Part shown: in pieces, positions 50,296-64,000 of the stretch
How the letters are laid out: every line of letters starts with the position of its first letter
How positions within the stretch are numbered: position 1 is the first letter of the stretch
Source of the DNA: Metallosphaera hakonensis JCM 8857 = DSM 7519
Lineage (GTDB): Archaea > Thermoproteota > Thermoprotei_A > Sulfolobales > Sulfolobaceae
Direction of reading: 5' to 3'
Assembly: GCF_003201675.2 (NCBI RefSeq)
Contig: NZ_CP029287.2
Coordinates: 992,001-1,056,000 of the forward strand
Length of the DNA: 64,000 nt
Translations under genes and position numbers: made by a program
Notes under the pieces: model-generated
Told to the model about the DNA's origin: nothing
Databases searched by the model: none
Seen by the model: the letters and a program-made list of their open reading frames with translations, nothing else

Positions 50296-51270
50296 CTATC
50301 TGTCTCCTTTCAATCCTTGTCCTTCTAGTATGGTCCCAAACAATGGTTGAATAGCTACGGCAGTTAAAGGTATTAGCAAGTAGACTGTTGTACTTACACT
50401 ATCGAAAATTAGGGAACCGAATAGTAAGGTAAAACAGGACAATGACAACGCTGGATCCTTTTTATATAGAAGGAATGCAGAACCGAGTCCCATTATACCT
50501 ATCGCAAAAATAAGGGGCGGCATCCAATTCCTGACACCTAATATACCGAAGATATAAGGAAATACAACACCGATCATAATTCCTAAACCTGGTATGGCAT
50601 TAGTGTACACCATAGTTCCTACGACTATTGCAAGAACCACGAATGGGATCATTAATTTCACAGAAATACCTCGCTTAATGGCATAAATAAGGAATCCCGC
50701 CCCCACGACTAGAACCGAGTATGACATTAACTCTCCGCAAATAGCTGTTATACTACCGAACACCGAAGAATTCATGATCTGGATAAGCCAGTTCCCAATG
50801 AGAGTCCCGTATGCTAGAAAATCGGGTATCAAAAGCAACAGTAAAATCCATTTTCTCAAGTAAGTTATGATAAACAACATCGCTGATATTAATATAAGGA
50901 CGTAAACCAAAGAAAAAAGAGCTGGCGGATCAAAAGAGGTATTGTTAACCCCATATATCACATGAACTAGGTCCAGAAGTATTGATAAATACAAGCTGGT
51001 CCATAGGAGTATTTTTCCCGGTCTGTTCAGCTTCCCGATGTAAGCTGCCGAGCCCAACAAGATAGGCTGCATAATAAGAACCATACCAAAAGCTACAGCG
51101 CCAATAACAAACATAATAGAGAATGCTCTCTCTACGACTGGAGTATTTGCAATCATCCCAATTGGGATAACTCCAGCCAAAAATTCCCTGTTAAATATAA
51201 GCTCGAGAAATAGCGCGATAACATAAACTAGAGAAAAAAGGGTTAGATTAATGCCTATCTTGTGCTCCAT
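50296..51270 (-). CDS. membrane partner of FoxC (CbsB-like position)
   Basis: A 324-residue protein with about ten membrane segments and almost no soluble part. Its start lies 23 bp inside the 3' end of foxC, so the two are translationally coupled. The cytochrome b558/566 pair CbsA-CbsB of Sulfolobus has the same arrangement of exported cytochrome and polytopic partner; the gene may be what fox papers call foxD, but I do not assign the symbol. Role inferred: anchoring FoxC and passing its electrons into the membrane. Confidence 0.65.
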
Positions 51271-52894
51271 TTCCTATCTGCCTAAATATCTTGACTATTG
51301 TATTTAACCTTATTAGGTTCTCTGGAACGATTCTGGAGTTCATTAATACGTATGCCATTGCTGGTGCAAGAACTGCATTACCCAGCAAGAATAGAGGCAG
51401 GAATCCTATGGAGCTTGAATCGGCAGGCTGTATATAGATACTCCACCAGAACGATATGGACTTAAAGTCTACAGACTCGCCGGCACCACCTTGAAATACG
51501 GCAAAGGCCACATGGTACGTATGTCCAGGCTGCAACTGTATTTGATAATGGGACTCACCTTGACCTCCCGATACACCTACAGTGGAGAACGTTCTAGCAA
51601 ACTCAGCTATCATATAAGGTCCAGTTGGCGAGTTCACAAACTGGAATCCTGTGGCAACTACGGAAGGATCCCATAACTGAGACGCGTTAGCCATGCCATT
51701 CATTACTAGCCATGGAGACACGTGTGGATTGTCCACAGATGGGAAAGCTACCCTATAGTTACCTCCTATATAGTATATTGATGAGCCATTGACGAATAGA
51801 TCTGCTATTAATCCTTGGTTGGGGAGATATCCTAAGTTTAGCGGATCTTTATACTGTGGATGATGAATGTAAGCTGGAGGAGATGTCCTGCTAAAGAATG
51901 TAGGTCCTGGATATCCAGCATCTTGAGTGTTATTGGCCCTAGGATTATTGTTCAGGACCCATACTTCTTCCTGTCCTGCAGACATTGCACCAGAGGTACC
52001 TGGCATCATGTGAGGAGTGTACGCTACTTGCGTCCAGGAACTTGGAACGTCGCCCAAGAGCCACATTATGGCCAATCTTTCGGGATACATGAACGTGCTG
52101 TTATAGAATAGCGTCACATATTTTGCAGTGTCCTCTGGATAGAAGAGATTATAGGTATCCTGAGCCCACGTCGTACCATTTAGACCCATGGAGAGAAATT
52201 GACCCAACGATGTCACGGGAGTTCCATTATAGTTGAGATTAATTGATGTTATATTAATTGGGTTTCCATTATTCAACGCTATACCATCCGGGTTAATAGC
52301 TCCCACAATCTGTCCGTACAATTTCCCGCTTTGATTATAGACATATATTGTAATAGGGTTAGTTAAGGCTTGTCCAGGAGGATATCCCATCTGTTCTGAC
52401 GTCGGCAAGGTGTAAACTGATGCCACTCCCTCATTACTTGCGCTATAGGAGACGTTCACAACCCACCAGCCGTCGGGAACCACTAAACCGAACGGTTGCC
52501 ATATCTTACCTGTTGTGGTTGTCTCAGGACAGGCAAGCCATGACTCCTGACCCACGACGGGAGCTTTCATTAGGATGAAGATATAGGAGACGTTATCTAC
52601 TTTGGTCCACGCAGCCTTTACATATACTATGGTTGTATGCCCTGATATACCATTTGGAACCGGTACTGTTGGCTCTAGCGGAACAGAACTGAATGGAATC
52701 GACTGCCAGAAGGCTTCAGAGCCAGGATCCCCTTCGTTAATTTGGGCGTTTGGTACATAATACGCGGTGATAGTATTAGAGGCATTAGATGCGGCATTCA
52801 GTAAAACATCGGCTCCATATGCTACCCCAACAAGAACTAACATAAAAATAAATCCCAAAATAAGTAAAGTTTTAACGTTGTTACCATTAGCCAT
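51248..52894 (-). CDS. foxC: CbsA-like mono/di-heme cytochrome b, FoxC
   Basis: A 548-residue protein anchored by an N-terminal segment (residues 9-30) and a C-terminal one (about 505-525). The large extracellular domain (about 45-490) resembles the ethylbenzene-dehydrogenase-type heme-binding domain of CbsA: it has [22 protein letters not shown], a GDVPSSW segment, [13 protein letters not shown] and several Met/His candidates for heme ligands. Many NxT/NxS sites fit the heavy glycosylation known for CbsA. In Sulfolobales growing on iron, FoxC is proposed to take electrons from Fe(II) at the cell surface. A GAGGTGAGA ribosome-binding site precedes the ATG. Confidence 0.75.
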
Positions 52895-53132
52895 TTATTC
52901 TCACCTCATATTTTCCTAAAACGAAATTAAAATAATTCATTTTCTTGACCTCCTCCTTATCTCAGCGTGGGATAGCAGTGAGCCAACTCCGAATAAGAGT
53001 ATCGCTAGACCGAAGAAGTTAATGAAATAGTTAGGTGTAGTATTGCCAGTCACCAAGTTCATACCATTTACATCAAATACTTCCTCAGGATATGACACTG
53101 TCCTGGTACCGGCTACAAGGATTATTATCCCG

Positions 53133-54343
53133 TAGCAGTTGTTCTATTTTCCCTCGGTAATACGAAATTCATGGTACTATCGAAAAAGTTTTTAGATTGA
53201 TGTCTTGTTGAGTGAAAATTGTGAAGTCCCAGAAAGAGAACGAGCTGGACGTCGCGAGGAGCGAGTTCATCAGGGCCTTCAATTTCGTAACTGGGATACT
53301 TAGGATGAAGAGGCTGAGCAGGAAGGTCGCGTTGGGTTTAGCGCTCATGGTATTGATCGGAGGAAGGGCAAGTATTAGGAACGCCTCCATCTCGTTCGGG
53401 CTGAACTACGCGAACTTGTTGAGGGCGCTGGAGCACCTGGAGGAAGCTTGGGGGAAGTACCTGGAGGCTTTGAGGGCGCTGATAGTTGGGCCGGTCGTGG
53501 TGATAGTTGACGACACCTTCGATCACAAGCTCTACTCCAGGGTTGAGAGCGTTGCCAGCAGGTACGGGAACTACTTCGCCTGGTGCTCCATGCACAAGGG
53601 GTACGAGTCCGGAGTGCAGGTCCTCACTGTGGCCCTGCACGACTTGGGTACGGGAAGGAGCTACATGGTTGGGGCGTTCCCCTACGCCACGAGGAAGATG
53701 TGGGAGAGCGGCCAGGTGAGCGAGTTTCGAACCAAGATCGAGATGGCTGCCGAGATGATTGAGGTCCTCAAGACCCGATTCCCCGTGGTAAGGGTGGTGT
53801 TCGACTCCTGGTATTGGTCGGAGAAGCTCGTTAAGGACAACGTGGTGTCTGAGCTGAAGTCCAACAGGAGGCTCCTCAGGGTTAGGTCAGCGGAGGGAGA
53901 GGACGCGTTGGAGGTGGAGGGGCACCTCCACGTGGGAGATCTTCCTCCCGGATCTTACTTCGCTGACCTGACCCTGGGAGACCATGTCATTACAGTGAAG
54001 TTGTTGATACTGGAATATAAAGATAGCAGGCTCAACCTGTACACCACGGACCTGAACATGGAGGACGAGACGATCGAGGAGACGTGGAAGATCAGGTGGG
54101 AGATAGAGAAGTTACACAGGGACGTGAAGACGTTGGGAATGCAGGACTCGTCCTTCCTCAAGAGGAGAAGGCTTCAGGGTTACCTGCTCCTCTTCGTGAT
54201 GGTAGTAAACGCTGTAAGGGACCTGATCGGGTCCCTCAAGCTGAGGAGCGTGGAGGAGCTCCTCAGATTCGTTGAAAATGGTTTAGGGGGCGCACAGGGT
54301 CTGATGAAAATGTTTAAGCTACGTTAAAGTAGAACAACTGCTA
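53133..54343 (+). mobile_element. ISC1217-like insertion sequence, 1211 bp
   Basis: Terminal inverted repeats of about 18 bp: TAGCAGTTGTTCTATTTT at 53133 and TAGCAGTTGTTCTACTTT reading inward from 54343. A perfect 6-bp direct duplication, ATCCCG, flanks it (53127-53132 and 54344-54349). The length is close to the 1217 bp of the type element. The single gene is intact and lies opposite to the fox transcripts. Intact ends and duplication point to a recent insertion. Confidence 0.9.
53212..54327 (+). CDS. ISC1217-type (DDE_Tnp_2-like) transposase
   Basis: A 371-residue transposase beginning at GTG. Candidate catalytic residues are the aspartate of VDDTFDHKLY (about 100), the aspartate of VFDSWYWSEK (about 203) and the glutamate in RWEIEKLHRDVKTLG (about 300), the DDE spacing of the archaeal ISC1217 family. 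No frameshift is visible, so the enzyme could be active. Its base composition is richer in G/C than the flanking fox genes, in keeping with a newcomer. Confidence 0.85.
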   Translation: MKIVKSQKENELDVARSEFIRAFNFVTGILRMKRLSRKVALGLALMVLIGGRASIRNASISFGLNYANLLRALEHLEEAWGKYLEALRALIVGPVVVIVDDTFDHKLYSRVESVASRYGNYFAWCSMHKGYESGVQVLTVALHDLGTGRSYMVGAFPYATRKMWESGQVSEFRTKIEMAAEMIEVLKTRFPVVRVVFDSWYWSEKLVKDNVVSELKSNRRLLRVRSAEGEDALEVEGHLHVGDLPPGSYFADLTLGDHVITVKLLILEYKDSRLNLYTTDLNMEDETIEETWKIRWEIEKLHRDVKTLGMQDSSFLKRRRLQGYLLLFVMVVNAVRDLIGSLKLRSVEELLRFVENGLGGAQGLMKMFKLR

Positions 54344-54403
54344 ATCCCGATTACAGCAAGAATGACTCCCAAGTATAGGAAGGATTTACTGTTGGCCATC
54401 TTC

Positions 54404-55009
54404 TCACCCAGAAGAGTTAACGTATGGATCCCATACTCCCTGTGGCATTAGACCTCCAGTAAGTTCAGAAGCATAGGTAGCGTTAGTCGTAGCTACTATT
54501 GTACCAACTAACCAAGAATGTCCTAACCCTGTAGCTGCAGTACCGCAATACTCTGCACAAGCCACGTGATATAGACCAGGTTGCGGGAACACGTAGACAA
54601 GATAGGAATAGTATCCGGGGACAGCTTCGGCACCTACGCTTAGTGGGATAGTAAAGTTCGAGGTTGCACTCTGAATGAAGAATTCATGGAATACATCAAC
54701 GCTATGTATCACGAATACTACAGGTTCGCCTACAGGAACTACAGTGAGGTTTGTGTACACTCTGTCATGTGGGTAGAAATCCCAGTGCCACTGTTGCCCT
54801 GTAACATAAATTATGACGTATGGCCCTTTATAAGATCCCAGAGCATTGGTGAACTCTGCGTGGACCACGCCTTCCCCAGCGGGAATATGGTCCGAGACAT
54901 AGTTGGGATTAAAGCCCAGGTAGTCGTAAGTGCTGTACTGAACCTCTAGAGAGATTATTGCTACAATAACTAAAATGAAGAATAGAGCTATTACAGTCCC
55001 ACGTTTCAC
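54404..55009 (-). CDS. foxB: heme-copper oxidase subunit II (CuA type) with altered CuA motif
   Basis: A 201-residue protein starting at GTG with an AAGGTGA ribosome-binding site. It has one N-terminal membrane anchor (residues 5-24) and an exported cupredoxin domain with GQQWHWDF (71-78), H108 in SVDVFHEFF and the CuA loop. The loop reads [18 protein letters not shown]151, E153, C155 and H164 are kept, but five residues are inserted between CGT and GH, and the methionine ligand position is leucine (L167). It would take electrons from FoxC for FoxA. The symbol foxB rests on subunit II identity in the fox cluster and is less certain than the function. Confidence 0.75.
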
Positions 55010-55161
55010 CTTTTCACCTTAAATACTACCCTATTAATCCTACTTAAAAACTTTTTGATTGTTTACTTTGATATCTTTTTTTGCCAAACTTCTACCAAAT
55101 TGAAACAAACCAAAGGTAATGAATTCTTGACTTTCCAGACGATCATCTTGATCGGAATCAA

Positions 55162-55686: not shown

Positions 55687-56136
55687 TTACGTTACATTGA
55701 GGTTTATTTGATTTCCATCGGTGAATACAATATTATAGACACCCGGCGACAGTTTTGCAGGTATAATTATGGTCTGGTATCCCAGGTATATTTCATATGT
55801 CTTGACGTATGCACTCACAATTGAACCGTTACTTAAAGGAACTGATTGAAGCTCATAATAAATTTGCGGAGTAAACGAAAATGTAGAGTTTGAGACCGAG
55901 GATATCCTAAGCTGATTGGTGTCCTCGTTATCCATAGTCAGTTTAATCCCTCGTAGCATAGTGTAATTTATACTGTGCCCATTAGATGAGTAGACTGGTA
56001 TATCAAAGGTCCCGTATGTGGCGTTATATGTAGGGACGAACGATGAACTAGGAAAGAGACTCTCCGCAACGAAATAAGCCGTCACACCAACTAATAACAC
56101 TACAACAATTATTATTAAAAAATTCCTTGACTTCAA
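55687..56136 (-). CDS. membrane-anchored exported fox-locus protein, 149 aa
   Basis: A signal-anchor (residues 6-28) followed by a beta-rich extracellular domain of 120 residues with several NxT/NxS sites and no Cys or metal motif. It follows the 68-aa two-helix gene by 12 bp. Not recognised; cell-surface location would suit a structural or docking part of the iron-oxidising complex. Confidence 0.6.
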   Translation of the reverse strand: MKSRNFLIIIVVVLLVGVTAYFVAESLFPSSSFVPTYNATYGTFDIPVYSSNGHSINYTMLRGIKLTMDNEDTNQLRISSVSNSTFSFTPQIYYELQSVPLSNGSIVSAYVKTYEIYLGYQTIIIPAKLSPGVYNIVFTDGNQINLNVT

Positions 56137-56148
56137 TATTATCTCATC

Positions 56149-56355
56149 TCAATCCTGCATGTAAGCTCCTGCCATTATTAAAGCTAGTCCAATTACTGCT
56201 ATTGCTAGACCTGCTAAATCAGTACCTGTAACGGTAAAAGCGAAAGAGGCTGGATTGGGCTTAAGCAGCGTATAACTGTACAGCGTGAGCATTATAACTG
56301 AAATAGCTACTAAAAATCCTCCAGGTAGTATAAGACCCCATACTTTCATGTTCAT
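56149..56355 (-). CDS. small two-TM fox-locus protein, 68 aa
   Basis: Two hydrophobic segments (about 8-28 and 44-64) with a loop ending in TVTGTDLAG. It is the first gene of the minus-strand fox transcripts, and its start is followed closely by the 149-aa gene. It is similar in plan to the 68-aa and 81-aa fox proteins. Confidence 0.55.
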   Translation of the reverse strand: MNMKVWGLILPGGFLVAISVIMLTLYSYTLLKPNPASFAFTVTGTDLAGLAIAVIGLALIMAGAYMQD

Positions 56356-57377
56356 TTCTAATCACTTATCTTTCGATTCTAACGAAAATAAAAAGCTTTC
56401 CCTTTTTTATGGTTGTGAATTGCTTCGATTCCTATCGAAGCTAACGCTAAACACACTTTTAAATTAACGTTTGGTTTTGAATTTAAGAGAAATCAATGGT
56501 CTTAACTCTTAAGAAAATTGAAGGATTCAACAAAGCACTTTTTTACTAGCGTATAACCTCCAGCCTATTCCTATCTCAAGACAAAAAGGATGTGAGGTTT
56601 GGGTTTTATTAGAATTTCATGATATCTGGCATCAATTCTTACCTGGGCCTCACCGAAATAACGGAAACCGCTCACTTCTTGAGATTCTCACAATAACTGC
56701 CGCGGAATTGAAAGATAAGTGAATCCGAACATCCTGAATATCCTTTGTCCACCGTCATTGGGATTTTCCCTACACCTTAGGAAAACGTAAAAGTACCAAC
56801 GTCACAAGATTATGAACTAATCTTTCGCAAAAACTGTTACCAACGATGAATAGATGATATTTGACCACATGATGAAATTATTGAATGCCCATGAATGCAC
56901 CACAAATTGAGTCCTTTTCTATATCTCGGTTTATATTAGATAAATTATATAATATTATGTAATTTGTTCTACATCGCCAGAAATCATGGTTAAAGTACGA
57001 TAGAGGATTCTTATATTTTTACACTAATAAAATTTTACAATTGAATCTAAGCATTCAAATCTGTTATGCTCTTAAGTCCTGATAACGGGTCCACACCTAA
57101 AGAATGTATGCTTATTGTGACTTTAAAGGGCAAGATCTTCAACCTAATCATATGGAAAGTTCTAGCATTAGATTTAGAGAAGATTTAGAGATATCCTTGT
57201 CCTTCAGACTACGAGAAAATATAACACTATCACTAAAATGTTTCTTATTTAAACATAGCAAATCCCTAAATAAAGAAGCCCTAATTAAATGGTGAACTAA
57301 TAACGAAATGTTTCCCTTAAATCTTTTTTAAATTTATAATGATAAACTTTTTAGTTTATATAATGATATATTTAACA
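56356..57377. other. divergent intergenic region upstream of foxA
   Basis: About 1 kb, AT-rich, carrying promoters for the minus-strand fox genes (right to left) and for foxA. TATA-like AATTTATAAT at 57331-57340 and TTTATATA at 57355-57362 precede foxA. The more distal one would give a 15-nt leader, like the spacing at the second foxA copy. A 63-codon plus-strand frame at 57104 is not convincing. Confidence 0.45.
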
Positions 57378-59138
57378 ATGGCTACTAGGGAAGAATTAAG
57401 AAAAATAGAGAGAGAAAAACTTTTAGAATGGTCTAGGGCATTTCATTCTGTTCAGGATAGAGAAGCCAGAAGGAGCGTATTTATGAAATTACTCTATACT
57501 GAGGACTACAGAATACTGTCAATAAAACTGACACTGGCCGGGATAATGTTCCTCTTCATAGGTGGTGCCTTTGCCCTCTTCCTGAGGGGACAGGCAGGGC
57601 TTACTAGCACTGGTGCGCCAGTAGTTCTAGATCCTGCGTACTACTTCCAGGCGATGACCAACCACGTTATGGATATGATATTCGGAGCTGCCTTTAACGT
57701 TGTCTTTGCAATTGCGTTCTACATGATTCCGGCCCTAAACGGAACCAGGTTGGTGAAGTGGCCAAAGTTGGCGAACACTGGTTTCTGGCTTAACATATTG
57801 GCCCTATTCATGATGAACCTGGGAGGAATAAAGAACCAATACATGTTCACTTTCTTGAATCCGTTACAAGCTTCACCGACTTGGTACATAGGTTACGGGC
57901 TAATGATCGTTGCCGAATGGATGGAAATGGCATCTGTTCTGGGGACATCTTTTTTGGGAAGAATACAGGATAAGTTAGTTCCTACTGCTATAGGCTTCAT
58001 TGTGATGGACATGATACTAATGGCTTTAGGTAATATCTCGGTCTTCATTGCTGACATGTGGAGCCTGTTCTCCCCAATTGGCGGGCTTAACATCTACCTG
58101 TTCGGGATACCCAACGCGGAGGTTTGGAAGGGACTGTTCTGGTTCGCGGACCATCCGCTGGTATACTTCGCCCCTTACACTCTCACTGGAGCAACGATCG
58201 CCATAACTCCACTTTACGCTAGGAGGCCCTTATACAGCGTCAGGTTCACGAGATGGCTGATACCAACCCTCTTCATCTTAGGAGGTAGCGTCTACGTGCA
58301 CCACATAGTTGATGATCCCTGGCCGCTGATTCTTAGGGACATATTCGCTCAGACCAGCACGGCCCTAATCGCCGTACCTTTCGCAGCGCTGTGGCTAGTG
58401 TTCTTCATTACGCTTGGGGATCCTAGGAAGTTGAAGTGGGACCCTGGGTTCGCCTTCATCTACGCAGCTGCAGTCTGGAACATCATAGGCGGTATACAGG
58501 CTGAGCCGACCAACCCGACCCCAGCCCTCGATCCGACCATCCACAACACGGGTTGGATATTCGGTCACTTCCACATAATGCTGGCGATATACTCCGTAGG
58601 TGGACTATTGGGCGCGCTTTACGTCGTCGGGCCGGATCTGTTCGGGAAGCAATGGTACAGCGTTAAGCTGGGTTGGTTGCATTTCTGGGGCTGGCAGGCG
58701 GGAATGGGGCTCTTCGCGATCGCTTCCAGCGAAGGAGGTTTCTTCGGCCTAATCAGGAGGGAAGTGGCCTGGGCCGGGTTCTACGAGGTCTACTACCAGC
58801 TACTGTTGATAGGAGGTTGGCTGGCGGGATTTGCGACGATTATATTCGCGTACAATCTGGCCCTCACTCTACTTTACGGACAGAAAGTGGAGAGACCCGA
58901 AATTCCCCTATGGGCTGTTCAGACTATAGCCATGGAAAGGTACGGAATGAGAAGAGAAGGTTATACGGAGGAAGAACTTCCCCTGGCCTTGCCTGCAAAT
59001 GGGATGACAATCGCAAGAGAAAACAGTAACAATATCTCGACGGGCTCGGCGGCAGGTACCATGGCAAGCGGAACGTATCAAGACAGGGAAGTTCGCGTTA
59101 ATCTAAAGTCTCAAGAGGGAAATGACCCTAGACCATAA
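57378..59138 (+). CDS. foxA: heme-copper oxidase subunit I, FoxA
   Basis: A 586-residue protein from the ATG at 57378 ([14 protein letters not shown]), chosen because the second copy starts at the same residue. About 12 membrane segments. Metal ligands: H96 (TNHVMDM, low-spin heme), H259 with Y263 (ADHPLVY, CuB and crosslinked Tyr; the usual PE is PL), H308 and H309 (VHHIVDD, CuB), H397 and H399 (GHFHIM, high-spin and low-spin hemes). It reduces O2 with electrons from Fe(II). A hydrophilic C-terminal tail (about 545-586) is Ser/Gly/Asn-rich. It is divergent from the minus-strand fox genes and separated from its paralogue by an IS-rich 3.4 kb. Confidence 0.9.
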
Positions 59139-59198
59139 TTTTCTTTTTCTTAAACTGAAGGTTCTTGCTACTATAGTGGCAAGGGACTAAAAAGCTTT

Positions 59199-59230
59199 GA
59201 GACTTCGCTGTATAGATGTGTAGAAACGTA
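59199..59230 (+). repeat. dispersed short repeat R1, partial copy 2
   Basis: GAGACTTC, then TGTATAGATGTGTAGAAACG, matches the first half of R1 at 34060 and 62073. It is truncated where an R2 copy begins 4 bp later. Confidence 0.5.
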
Positions 59231-59233
59231 GTT

Positions 59234-59332
59234 TTATACTTCCTGAGACTTTAAAGGGAAACGTAACCTTACTCTGACACATCGAATGGCTTTGGATGTT
59301 ACATTGCGCTTTAGACTATGACTTAAGTATAA
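59234..59332 (+). repeat. dispersed short repeat R2, copy 2
   Basis: A 99-bp unit from TTATACTTCCTGAGAC to GACTTAAGTATAA, almost identical to the copy at 61722. Inner blocks CTTTAAAGG, ACGTAAC, GTTACATTGCG and GCTTTAGAC can pair into a hairpin. The ends TTATACTT/AAGTATAA are inverted. No coding potential. The remaining sequence to 59876 is AT-rich with nothing supported. Confidence 0.75.
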
Positions 59333-59876
59333 GGCGAGATACAAAATTATACTCTTGTAGTTCCTGGAAAAATCAGTAAGTCCACAAGACAGGTAAGGCA
59401 CAAATTTAACCCTCAAAACATCTCAGGATCATCCCGATAACTCGCTTACAACACTGATCTTGACTGAAATATCATGATCAACATTATAATACTTCGAACG
59501 TAAATTGTTCATTAACAGGGGTTAAAGATTTTTTAATAAAGTTATTGAATGGGTAATAGTAGAAAGTTTATAAAATATAGAAAACAACATGACAAATTTA
59601 TACGAGACTGTTGTCACTGACTCATGATAACATTTATGATATTATTAATGTTGGCTTGACGGTTTATAGATTTTCGGTTCAACATTACTGGAAGAACTAT
59701 AAAATACGATCATCTTTTGAATTGGCCTCATTTGAATATCATAAAGCACGTTTTGTTGTATTATTCAATTTATTTCACAAATATAGTATGATATAAGAAA
59801 TATTTCTTTGTAATCAGATAAAGATAATAGTATTTTATTCAGAAAATATCCAATAGTCACCAAAGTAAGTCATCTC

Positions 59877-61130
59877 GGGCGGCTCAGGAGTCCATTGCGA
59901 TTTCAATTTATTTCTATAGGATTAGATAGTAGAAATTGATTCTACATTTTCGGTAACACTAATAGGGGACGAGCATGAGGTAATATCATGGAACTGTCAA
60001 CTGTGAACGAGGTAACCCTCTACGGGGTCCGGATTATGGAGCTCGTAGAGGGACCTGGGAAGATATCCCTCACGCTCGTCCCCAAGATATTACCCGATGA
60101 CGCCTTATTAAACAAACCGGTCCAGGAGATCGAGAGGATGGCCTTGGAGGAAGCTGAGAGGATTAGTCCCAACTACCAAAGGGGTAAGGATGTGAAGAGG
60201 AAGGGTTACGCGAGCTACAGGTTCCTGAAGGGGTTCAAGATCGTGATGGACGAGAGGCAGACGAAGTACGAGTTGGAGTGGATATCGGTGAAGCTGCCAG
60301 TGCTTTACGGTAAAGGGAGGGTGAGGACCCAGGTCGAGGAGACTCTGTTAAGGGAGGAAAGGAAGGTCTTCGCGTCCCTAATGTTGGTCTACTCAGTGAA
60401 GGGAGGCAAGTTGAACGCCAAGCTCTGGATGCCCGAGATTGAAACGGGCAACGACTTCAAGTACGTTATAGTTGACGGGAAGTACGTGAAGCTCAAGGGA
60501 CGAAAGGCGGTCCTCCTCGTGGCTATGGGCGTGACCCGGGAGGGAAAGAGGGCGGTCCTCGAGGTCATCATAAGCGAGGCTGAGGACGCCATGGCCTATT
60601 GGAGTCTCCTGGTCAGGGTCTGGAAGAAGACCAGCTTCGTCCTGGTGGTAGCTGACGGGATCAAGGCCTTGGACAGGGCGATCTCCCTAGCTGAACTTCA
60701 CGTGGGGAGGCAGGGCTGCCTGGTCCACCTCAAGCGTACGACCAAGGAGGAAAGGGAGGCTTTAGACGCGATCACCTCGTCAGCCGAGCTCGGCAAGATC
60801 AAGCCCGAGACCAACCCGACTCTTCTAAGCTACCTCATCGCCGACAAGAAGCTCTGGAAGTGGCTTAAGTCCAACAACTTGGTGAATCCTTCAACTCCCT
60901 CCTGGAGAGGAGGAGGTTCGGGTTGTTTCACTCTCCCTGGAGGATACTACAGCTCGCGCGGGCCATAGCGCTCTACTACAACCTATTCACTTATTTTCTC
61001 ATCACTGTAATAATATTACAGTCTTCTTCATTCCTCTCACTTTATCCGAAATATACCCAATAATTTGTACATTGGATAAGTCTAATTCAAAGCCAGAAAA
61101 TACAATTCGCAATGGACTCCTGAGCCGCCC
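59877..61130 (+). mobile_element. IS256-like insertion sequence, 1254 bp
   Basis: Inverted termini of about 27 bp: GGGCGGCTCAGGAGTCCATT at 59877 and the same read inward from 61130. A perfect 8-bp duplication, GTCATCTC, flanks it (59869-59876 and 61131-61138). The single transposase gene carries a frameshift. The relic at 1338-1645 is from the same family, and the MITE at 10536 has related ends. Confidence 0.9.
59988..61063 (+). pseudogene. frameshifted IS256-like transposase
   Basis: The first 299 codons read MELSTVNEVTLYG through to KSNNLV. The DDE aspartates are in VDGKYVKLKGRK and VVADGIKALDRAI, and QGCLVHLKR is the IS256 family QxCxxHxxR segment. At about 60884 one base is missing relative to the sense of the relic at 1375 (GTGAATCC for an expected GTGGAATCC). 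Restoring it gives VESFNSLLERRRFGLFHSPW, with the third catalytic glutamate, ending at the TAA at 61061 (358 residues). As it stands the frame leaves the family sequence before that glutamate, so this copy should be inactive unless frameshifting occurs. Confidence 0.8.
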
Positions 61131-61184
61131 GTCATCTCTCAATCTTTATAAGCTTAGTAAGTATAATCTTAAGGTAGATCCCAG

Positions 61185-61703
61185 GTGTGCTATTACAGGA
61201 TCACGAAAGTTCTTAGACCGATTAAAGGTTCGAGCAAGATCCTTATGTTAAAGGAAGAGATCTTTGAAAAGATAATGACTGATCCAATCTTTTCTGTAAT
61301 TATTAATGATAGGTGGGAACAACTTAAGATAAGTAAAAGCTACTACTACTCTCTAGTGAAGGAACTTAGAAGATTGAAAGTTTTAGAGGAAAACGCGCTG
61401 GCATTTAAGGCAATCCTCGCCTATAGGTACGATGCCAATTGTATTAAGCTAATTAACGATAAGTTAGCCTTTCTATCCGAACATAAGATTGGAGTGGCGA
61501 TGAAATTACAACAAGAGCCCAACTGTCTCTCATGCAAACTCATGACAGAATGTGTATACGGATTGAAATTATTGAGGGGTGAACTTCGCATCAGGAATTC
61601 GGATGAAAACTTGACCGATCCGCATGCCAGATGGCTTCAAAGTATGTCAAGCATTTTAGATCGAATAAAAAATAACGAAACGCGAGCCGAGATTATCATA
61701 TAA
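61185..61703 (+). CDS. hypothetical protein with CxxC-type cluster, 172 aa
   Basis: A protein starting at GTG (MCYYRITKVLRP) with a helical N-terminal half that resembles a winged-helix or sigma-like fold (EEIFEKIMTD, then SKSYYYSLVKELRRLKVLEE) and a cysteine group, NCLSCKLMTECVYGLK, near residue 120 that could bind Fe-S or zinc. It may be a metal- or redox-sensing regulator of the fox locus; the family is not recognised. The IS256-like element ends 54 bp upstream, so its promoter region may have been altered; a GTATAATC box remains about 21 nt upstream. Confidence 0.55.
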   Translation: MCYYRITKVLRPIKGSSKILMLKEEIFEKIMTDPIFSVIINDRWEQLKISKSYYYSLVKELRRLKVLEENALAFKAILAYRYDANCIKLINDKLAFLSEHKIGVAMKLQQEPNCLSCKLMTECVYGLKLLRGELRIRNSDENLTDPHARWLQSMSSILDRIKNNETRAEIII

Positions 61704-61721
61704 ATTATGATTTCTTGCAAA

Positions 61722-61816
61722 TTATACTTCCTGAGACTTTAAAGGACAACGTAACCTTCTCTGATACATCGAATGACTTTGGATGTTACATTGCGCTTTA
61801 GACTATGAAAGTATGA
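61722..61816 (+). repeat. dispersed short repeat R2, copy 3
   Basis: TTATACTTCCTGAGACTTTA, then ACGTAACC, GATACATCGAATG, and GTTACATTGCGCTTTAGAC with a shortened right end. It lies just after the stop of the 172-aa gene. It is close to the copy at 59234 over about 80 bp. Confidence 0.75.
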
Positions 61817-62072
61817 GACCAAGTCCTTGATGTGGCAAAAATAACGTAAGGCCATCAAAATTACATAATGCTTTGGCTTAACCCTAAATAAGGGATTTCC
61901 TAGAAATTAATCTTTAAAATTGATCTATTAGTCGGGCATCTATATTTGAGCCAAATAGATTGATACGGCAACGCGGGTGTGAGGGTTCAACTTAAAGATA
62001 TTCTGAAAGGTAATGTTAAGTCCAACATTAGGATTCGATAAACGATTCTCGATGAGTAGATATATGATTTTT

Positions 62073-62136
62073 GAGGTCTCCATGTATAGATTTGTAAGAA
62101 ACGCCATTTTCAGGTGAAATACACAATTATAGCCGG
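62073..62136 (+). repeat. dispersed short repeat R1, copy 3
   Basis: GAGGTCTCCATGTATAGAT, then TGTAAGAAACG, CATTTTCAGGTGAAATACAC and a short tail match R1 at 34060-34122 over about 62 bp with few changes. The remaining 61817-62572 interval shows only AT-rich sequence and the foxA-copy promoter. Confidence 0.65.
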
Positions 62137-62528
62137 CTACGATTTCCATTCTTTGTATTTCCCTGAAATTATCCTTTTGATCTCAAAAGATTTGGTACTT
62201 TAACAATAGTCAAGTTAAATAATGAGCACAATTAATCTCTGTATCACGATAGATTTAGAGCGACTCCCTAACGCATAATTCAGATCCTAATTATAACAAA
62301 CTTACCCATTTCAGCTTAATTAAACTGAAAATAATCTAACAGTTCGTCCTTTACGGTATTATTGTCATCACAGATATAACGGGCTTGGATGTTCTCCTCG
62401 TACTTTTGTCCTCATTTTCGGAGATCTTCTTAATTTCATCTAATTAATTTAAATATTTACTCCATTTTTTCACGTTGCACTAAAGGCATTCAAATTAAGG
62501 ATTGTCTATCGCCTCTTCAAAGAAATCT

Positions 62529-62540
62529 CTTTATTTAAAG
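62529..62540 (+). promoter_or_regulatory. TATA region of second foxA copy
   Basis: CTTTATTTAAAG lies about 38 nt before the ATG at 62573, predicting a leader of roughly 13 nt. The more distal TATA-like box at foxA is similarly placed. Confidence 0.4.
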
Positions 62541-62572
62541 AATTCTCCAGCGTACGAAATAACAGATAGAGC

Positions 62573-64000
62573 ATGGCTACTCGAGAGGAAATTAGGAGAA
62601 TAGAGCAGGAAAAGTTGATGGAATGGGCAAGGAGATACCAGGAAGTACTGAATAGGGAAGCAAAGAGATCCGTGTTTAGTAAGGTCTTATACACTGAAGA
62701 GTATAAGACGTTAAGCATAAAGTTGCTACTAACTGCGGTTGCGTGGCTCTTCATAGGAGGAGCCTTTGCCCTCTTCCTGAGGGGACAGGCAGGGCTTAGC
62801 AGCACCGGTACCCCGGTGGTCCTAGATCCTGCGTACTACTTCCAGGCGATGACCAACCACGTTATGGACATGGTATTCGGGGCAGCATTCACGGCAGTAT
62901 TCTCCCTAGCTTTCTACGTTATACCAGCATTGAACGGCTCCAGGTTGGTCAAATGGCCCAAGGTCGCGAACTTTGGCTTCTGGCTCAATAACCTAGCTCT
63001 TCTTATGATGAACTTAGGAGGAATACAAAATCAATACTTGTTCACTTTCCTGAATCCACTTCAGGCTTCGGTCACCTGGTACATAGGCTATGGTACAATG
63101 GTTATTGCCGAGTGGATGGAAATGGTATCTGTTATAGGCACCAGTTTCGAAGGTAGAGTACCAGGAAGACTAGTACCAACTGCCATAGGCTTCATTGTGA
63201 TGGACATGATAATGATGGCTCTGGCCAATATCTCGGTCTTCATTGCTGACATGTGGAGCCTGTTCTCCCCAATTGGCGGGCTTAACATCTACCTGTTCGG
63301 GATACCCAACGCGGAGGTTTGGAAGGGACTGTTCTGGTTCGCGGACCATCCGCTGGTATACTTCGTACCATATACGCTCTCAGGGTGCATCATTGCAGTG
63401 GCCCCGCTTTACGCTAGGAGGCCCATGTATAGCGTCAGGTTCACGAGATGGCTTATTCCTACGGCATTCGTACTTGGTTCCAGCGTCTACGTGCACCACA
63501 TAGTTGATGATCCCTGGCCGCTGATTCTTAGGGACATATTTGCCCAGACCAGCACGGCACTCGTAGCTGTACCTTTCGCAGCACTCTGGTTACTCTTCTT
63601 CATTACGCTTGGGGATCCTAGGAAGTTGAAGTGGGATGTGGGGCTTGCCTTCATCTATGCAGCTGCAGTCTGGAACATCATAGGCGGTATACAGGCTGAG
63701 CCGACCAACCCGACCCCAGCCCTCGATCCGACCATCCACAACACGGGTTGGATATTCGGTCACTTCCACATAATGTTAGCATTATATTCCGTAGGGGGTG
63801 TCTTGGGGATAGTTTACGTTGCAGGTCCATTCCTTTTAGGGAAGCAATGGTACAGCACGAAACTTGGGTGGCTGCACTTCTGGGGCTGGCAGGCGGGAAT
63901 GGGGCTCTTCGCAGCCGTTTCCAGTGAAGGAGGCCTCTTTGGTCTCATCAGGAGGGAAGTGGCCTGGGCCGGGTTCTACGAGGTCTACTACCAGCTCATA
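62573..64000 (+). CDS. foxA': second heme-copper oxidase subunit I, FoxA' (runs off right edge)
   Basis: An open frame of 476 codons from the ATG ([20 protein letters not shown]) to the end of the window with no stop. It aligns without gaps to FoxA and keeps all ligands: [21 protein letters not shown] and GHFHIM. DNA identity is uneven: long blocks are identical to foxA (for example about 63228-63365 against 58032-58169) while segments between them differ at many synonymous sites and some residues. The C-terminal 110 residues are outside the window. Tandem foxA copies are known from Metallosphaera. Confidence 0.9.

Follow-up and report, generated by a model that had tools for sequence, protein, structure and literature searches.

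A recent ISC1217-family insertion splits a small conserved gene between foxB and foxC of Metallosphaera hakonensis

The stretch of M. hakonensis DNA analysed here (64,000 nucleotides, hereafter the window, in whose positions features are given unless stated otherwise) belongs to a genome assembled as a single contig of 2,544,115 bp. It carries foxB, foxC and foxD, all read from the minus strand, and an insertion sequence that lies between the first two in the opposite orientation. The features at this locus are as follows.

50296-51270, minus strand: foxD, intact, 324 aa, 59-65% identical to genus relatives and in the same order
51248-52894, minus strand: foxC, intact, 548 aa, 81-85% identical in four other Metallosphaera, with a CbsA-like N-terminus
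52937-54399, minus strand: gene for an 81-aa two-helix membrane protein, split into an N-terminal part (54350-54399) and a C-terminal part (52937-53132)
53127-53132, no strand: left copy of the 6-bp target duplication ATCCCG, read directly, its length backed by orthologue alignment
53133-54343, plus strand: complete ISC1217-type insertion sequence, 1211 bp, with terminal repeats, target duplication and an identical second copy
53133-53150, plus strand: left terminal inverted repeat, 18 bp, TAGCAGTTGTTCTATTTT, of an inverted pair matching at 17/18 positions (94%)
53183-53195, plus strand: AAAAAGTTTTTAG, candidate BRE/TATA promoter for transposase expression, ranked 11th among about 128,000 positions in a weight-matrix scan, to be read as weak evidence
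53212-54327, plus strand: transposase, 371 aa, sole gene of the element (PF04693, DDE_Tnp_2, E 1.3e-128)
54326-54343, minus strand: right terminal inverted repeat, 18 bp, TAGCAGTTGTTCTACTTT, the other member of the pair
54344-54349, no strand: right copy of ATCCCG, read directly
54404-55009, minus strand: foxB, heme-copper oxidase subunit II, intact (PF00116, E 1.1e-6), 85-95% identical to genus relatives
55044-55056, minus strand: candidate BRE/TATA promoter of foxB and downstream genes, AAAAAGTTTTTAA, ranked 5th among about 128,000 positions, likewise weak evidence

The Fox genes of Metallosphaera have been described in the order foxA-A'-I-B-C-D-E-F-J-G-H, with nothing named between B and C, and strain HO1-1 of M. 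hakonensis as having a 2.54 Mb genome with a third foxA copy (PMC7325606). The cluster studied here keeps foxB, foxC and foxD intact and arranged and oriented as described there, but it has the unnamed gene between B and C broken, three copies of foxA (each intact and conserved) and a rearranged foxA side. On this side (55687-64000), foxA is preceded by two small genes that are inverted relative to M. sedula, the 172-aa gene that stands beside foxB in M. sedula is found at 61185-61703 in the opposite orientation, and a Mutator-type transposase ORF occupies 59988-60968.

The element resembles the ISC1217 insertion sequences of Sulfolobales in its single DDE transposase gene, its short terminal inverted repeats and its small target duplication. 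The transposase matches the PF04693 profile (archaeal transposase ISC1217) over its full length, with 429 bits against a cutoff of 20.2 and profile positions 4-327 of 327 covered. Read directly from the sequence, the stretch TWKIRWEIEKLHRDVK contains the IS4-type signature W-x2-R-x3-E-x6-K, which together with two aspartates would make up a candidate catalytic D, D and E set. The element departs from known ISC1217 members in that its fox copy has a 6-bp duplication and a second copy one of 7 bp, and in that the nearest complete transposase beyond the M. hakonensis genome is 79% identical. Membership in the IS701 family was rejected (best score 60 bits against a curated NCBIfam cutoff of 170), and the transposase matched nothing in phage records. 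Its candidate promoter lies only 16 nt 5' of the first GTG (53212-53221 region), and this proximity suggests that translation probably proceeds from a leaderless start at the in-frame GTG at 53221. The 6-bp duplications and matching terminal repeats that a first-pass annotation of this DNA had reported hold, coordinates included, and its description of a fresh ISC1217-like insertion is borne out by the Pfam match, the identical second copy and the clean target duplication.

When the flanks are joined with one ATCCCG, a 246-nt frame results that runs on the minus strand from 54399 to 52937 and comprises 81 codons plus a stop, in agreement with the exact 82-codon frame (stop included) first proposed for this locus. 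The ATG lies 4 nt past the foxB stop, also as proposed, and the duplication spans codons 17-19, within the first predicted membrane helix. Around the insertion site the restored length agrees residue for residue with Metallosphaera orthologues, which independently sets the duplication at 6 bp. The ribosome-binding site in front of the gene had been called perfect; the sequence 5' of the ATG, GGGTGAGAAG, is good but imperfect, and the site preceding foxC, GAGGTGAG, is the better of the two. The insertion leaves behind a 26-aa stub, MANSKSFLYLGVILAVIGISSCSTLT, together with some 65 codons of the C-terminal part, which meet a stop within the first few codons of the element and offer no start codon ahead of Met41. 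A search of the M. hakonensis genome found no paralogue of the 81-aa protein elsewhere. Given the stub, the start-less remainder and the lack of a paralogue, the insertion amounts to a null allele, and as far as sequence can tell, loss of the protein is certain.

We then asked how widely the intact gene occurs. Among the 60 relatives covered by the orthologue search, 13 carry an intact orthologue of 80-92 aa that is 53-83% identical, including M. sedula, M. javensis (AS-7), M. yellowstonensis (MK1) and Sulfolobus sp. UBA167 (the latter three being genomes G004, G002 and G023). The M. sedula orthologue spans 436022-435780. The restored protein matches these 13 genomes at E-values of 1e-21 to 1e-39, well past what chance would give, and in the same place every time. 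In each of the 13 other genomes with a true FoxC, the small gene immediately precedes foxC, and foxB flanks its other side in 12 of them. Intact copies between foxB and foxC thus exist in relatives, as does the two-helix architecture that the first-pass annotation had assigned to the product; its claim of a split gene has passed the refutation test that the annotation itself had set. The 14 genomes with a true FoxC are the very ones that have the small gene (counting the split one of M. hakonensis), while the gene is found in none of the 46 other genomes searched, all of which are without true FoxC. One genome, G007, has the small gene along with foxC and foxD but no adjacent foxB ORF and no close FoxB anywhere, an unusual Fox arrangement; because the gene and foxC persist there without FoxB, the small gene appears to track FoxC rather than FoxB. 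A profile search of a 398-genome sample of the phylum returned no full-length relative outside Sulfolobaceae, and the weak matches found there were partial, many with internal stops, and were taken as chance.

The family alignment has 24 invariant columns, which concentrate in the second helix and the inter-helix loop (E-F-V-N-G-M, N-Y-F), and pN/pS values of 0.02-0.35 place nonsynonymous differences far below synonymous ones. On the evidence of its orthologues and their conservation, the 81-aa gene is real. AlphaFold2 models the M. javensis orthologue as two long helices forming a hairpin (mean pLDDT 77), and a fold search with this model gave no match below E 1. A search of solved structures with the orthologue profile retrieved chance transmembrane matches only (best E 0.2). 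The restored protein scored 20 bits against DUF6463 (PF20064), below its gathering cutoff of 26, with weak matches in 13 of the 14 members; DUF973 and DUF7139 likewise matched the small family weakly in Pfam, and wherever a cutoff was given, the score fell short of it. NCBIfam holds no model for the family. Most simply, the protein would serve FoxC/FoxD as an accessory subunit or as a helper in assembly, since the gene for this small hairpin stands between those for a heme-copper oxidase subunit II and a CbsA-like cytochrome and tracks the latter; gene order and co-occurrence likewise suggest that it may be a physical partner of FoxC.

To judge the age of the insertion, we compared the element with its other copies and the remnants with their intact counterparts. 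Genome positions 2462128-2463338 hold a second copy that matches at every one of the 1211 bp, and the remaining copies are fragments (75-99% identical). The restored gene contains no frameshift or stop, its remnant has a pN/pS of 0.14-0.23 against genus orthologues, inside the range among intact copies, and it shows the fewest single-lineage changes (3 versus 6 and 6). FoxB, FoxC and FoxD have pN/pS values like those of relatives, with no decay seen. The identical second copy together with undecayed remnants and neighbours indicates that the insertion is, on sequence grounds, recent, possibly dating from laboratory culture. The second copy is itself flanked by a 7-bp target duplication, TCCAATA, and sits within another transposase gene, a kin of the Mutator-type one on the foxA side. 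The genome also holds short non-autonomous, MITE-like derivatives that consist of element ends only: one of about 212 bp at 939984-940195 carries a 7-bp duplication, TTATCTA, and further end pairs lie near genome positions 550114, 465194, 2465056, 2410397 and 290857.

Two alternatives bear on whether the insertion is a fixed feature of the strain. A second identical copy is the usual source of a mis-join, so that an element copy might have been misplaced at the fox locus during assembly; however, a mis-join would not yield a perfect 6-bp duplication restoring the exact orthologue length, the two copies have unrelated flanks and the element ends are precise, and we regard such an artefact as extremely improbable. 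The insertion might instead be polymorphic, present in some cells or stocks only or in the course of excising, in which case the functional population would be mixed. Against this, DDE elements rarely excise precisely and the assembly is one closed contig carrying the element, and we consider a mixed population unlikely, even though the identical copies and clean duplication speak for recent activity and a second assembly of the type strain exists (JCM 8857, GCA_001315825.1; PMC7325606).

The element is antisense to the Fox genes and may, as the first-pass annotation suggested, block read-through to foxC. The foxB promoter is a strong candidate, 34 nt upstream of the gene, and four relatives within Metallosphaera have a similar site at -33 or -34. 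Between the element and foxC, and in the end of the element that faces outward, the top-scoring sites have ranks of 450-760 in a matrix built from a general consensus, whose ranks are weak evidence, and they are barely better than same-place sites in relatives, whose foxC presumably depends on the foxB promoter for its transcription. The scan thus found no strong separate promoter for foxC; a bacterial promoter scan was set aside, the host being archaeal. Within Metallosphaera, a gap of 32-42 nt precedes foxC, which is equipped with a ribosome-binding site of its own; in other genera the genes abut or overlap, as neighbouring genes do in most relatives. Reduced foxC transcription through the insertion is therefore plausible on this layout, and a partial polar effect on foxC would be about an even prospect.

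A stronger version of this effect, in which foxC and foxD are silenced and Fe(II)-dependent growth is lost or nearly lost, would fit a sole strong upstream promoter candidate at foxB, an antisense element 1.2 kb long and Fox genes that overlap or abut in most relatives. Counts et al. 2022 (Environ Microbiol 24:850) reportedly takes up, in its abstract, how Fox clusters are affected by gene disruption and polarity, which would lend this reading further support; the M. hakonensis insertion may already have been reported there. Weak promoter-like sites in the remnant and element end argue the other way, as do the intact FoxB, FoxC and FoxD with their ordinary pN/pS, although these only bound how old a loss could be. 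M. hakonensis DSM 7519 is moreover credited, second-hand, with high rates of Fe(II) oxidation in a passage of PMC9043896 that cites Bromfield 2011 and Shiers 2013. We thus consider strong polarity rather doubtful, if somewhat less so than a mixed population. Growth of M. hakonensis is listed on sulfur, tetrathionate, FeS and H2S (PMC8551704). With foxB, foxC, foxD and the foxA copies intact and conserved and with the cited DSM 7519 rates, loss of Fe(II) oxidation in M. hakonensis is not supported, and the data lean against it. The stocks behind the rate report may be without the insertion; if they carry it, the 81-aa protein is not strictly required for Fe(II) oxidation.

The account that we favour, and hold to be likely, is that an active ISC1217-family element recently entered and inactivated the small fox gene, that its product is a FoxC/FoxD accessory, and that the strain probably still oxidises Fe(II). 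A copy of the DDE element transposed into the first membrane helix at codons 17-19, thereby inactivating a small conserved gene of the fox operon. The 81-aa protein may assist the cytochrome b module FoxC/FoxD as an accessory partner in the membrane, or help to link it to the FoxA/FoxB oxidase. Continued Fe(II) oxidation would mean either that the protein is inessential for activity or that the insertion is too recent for its cost to have been selected against, and culture on yeast extract or sulfur might have offered a relaxed setting. Transcription of foxC would now come from the foxB promoter through the antisense element, or from a weak start in the remnant or element end. A more specific proposal, which we put forward tentatively as the less probable side of the question, is that the protein is an overlooked dedicated subunit of the FoxC/FoxD cytochrome and HO1-1 a natural null that still oxidises Fe(II), perhaps less well.

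A second Sulfolobaceae genome, G008, of 2,694,756 bp, carries an independent Fox-cluster lesion. Its foxC (L041:3919-5699) is frameshifted by an exact tandem duplication, seen as a 75-bp identical repeat at 74-bp spacing. Both genomes show one lesion in an otherwise intact Fox stretch; in G008, however, the 74-bp tandem duplication shifts the foxC frame, whereas in M. hakonensis an insertion sequence breaks the small gene upstream.

An ISC1217-type insertion into a gene is an ordinary event. We know of no gene-by-gene dissection of the Fox cluster, the proposed archaeal machinery for iron oxidation, and a conserved, unnamed membrane protein found exactly where FoxC is would be a likely missing component of it. 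By the same token, iron-oxidation work on M. hakonensis may have been done on a mutant, which calls for caution. The useful part is the strict linkage of this small protein to FoxC combined with a natural null: a cultured type strain with a fresh loss of the 81-aa protein would offer a natural test of the need for it.
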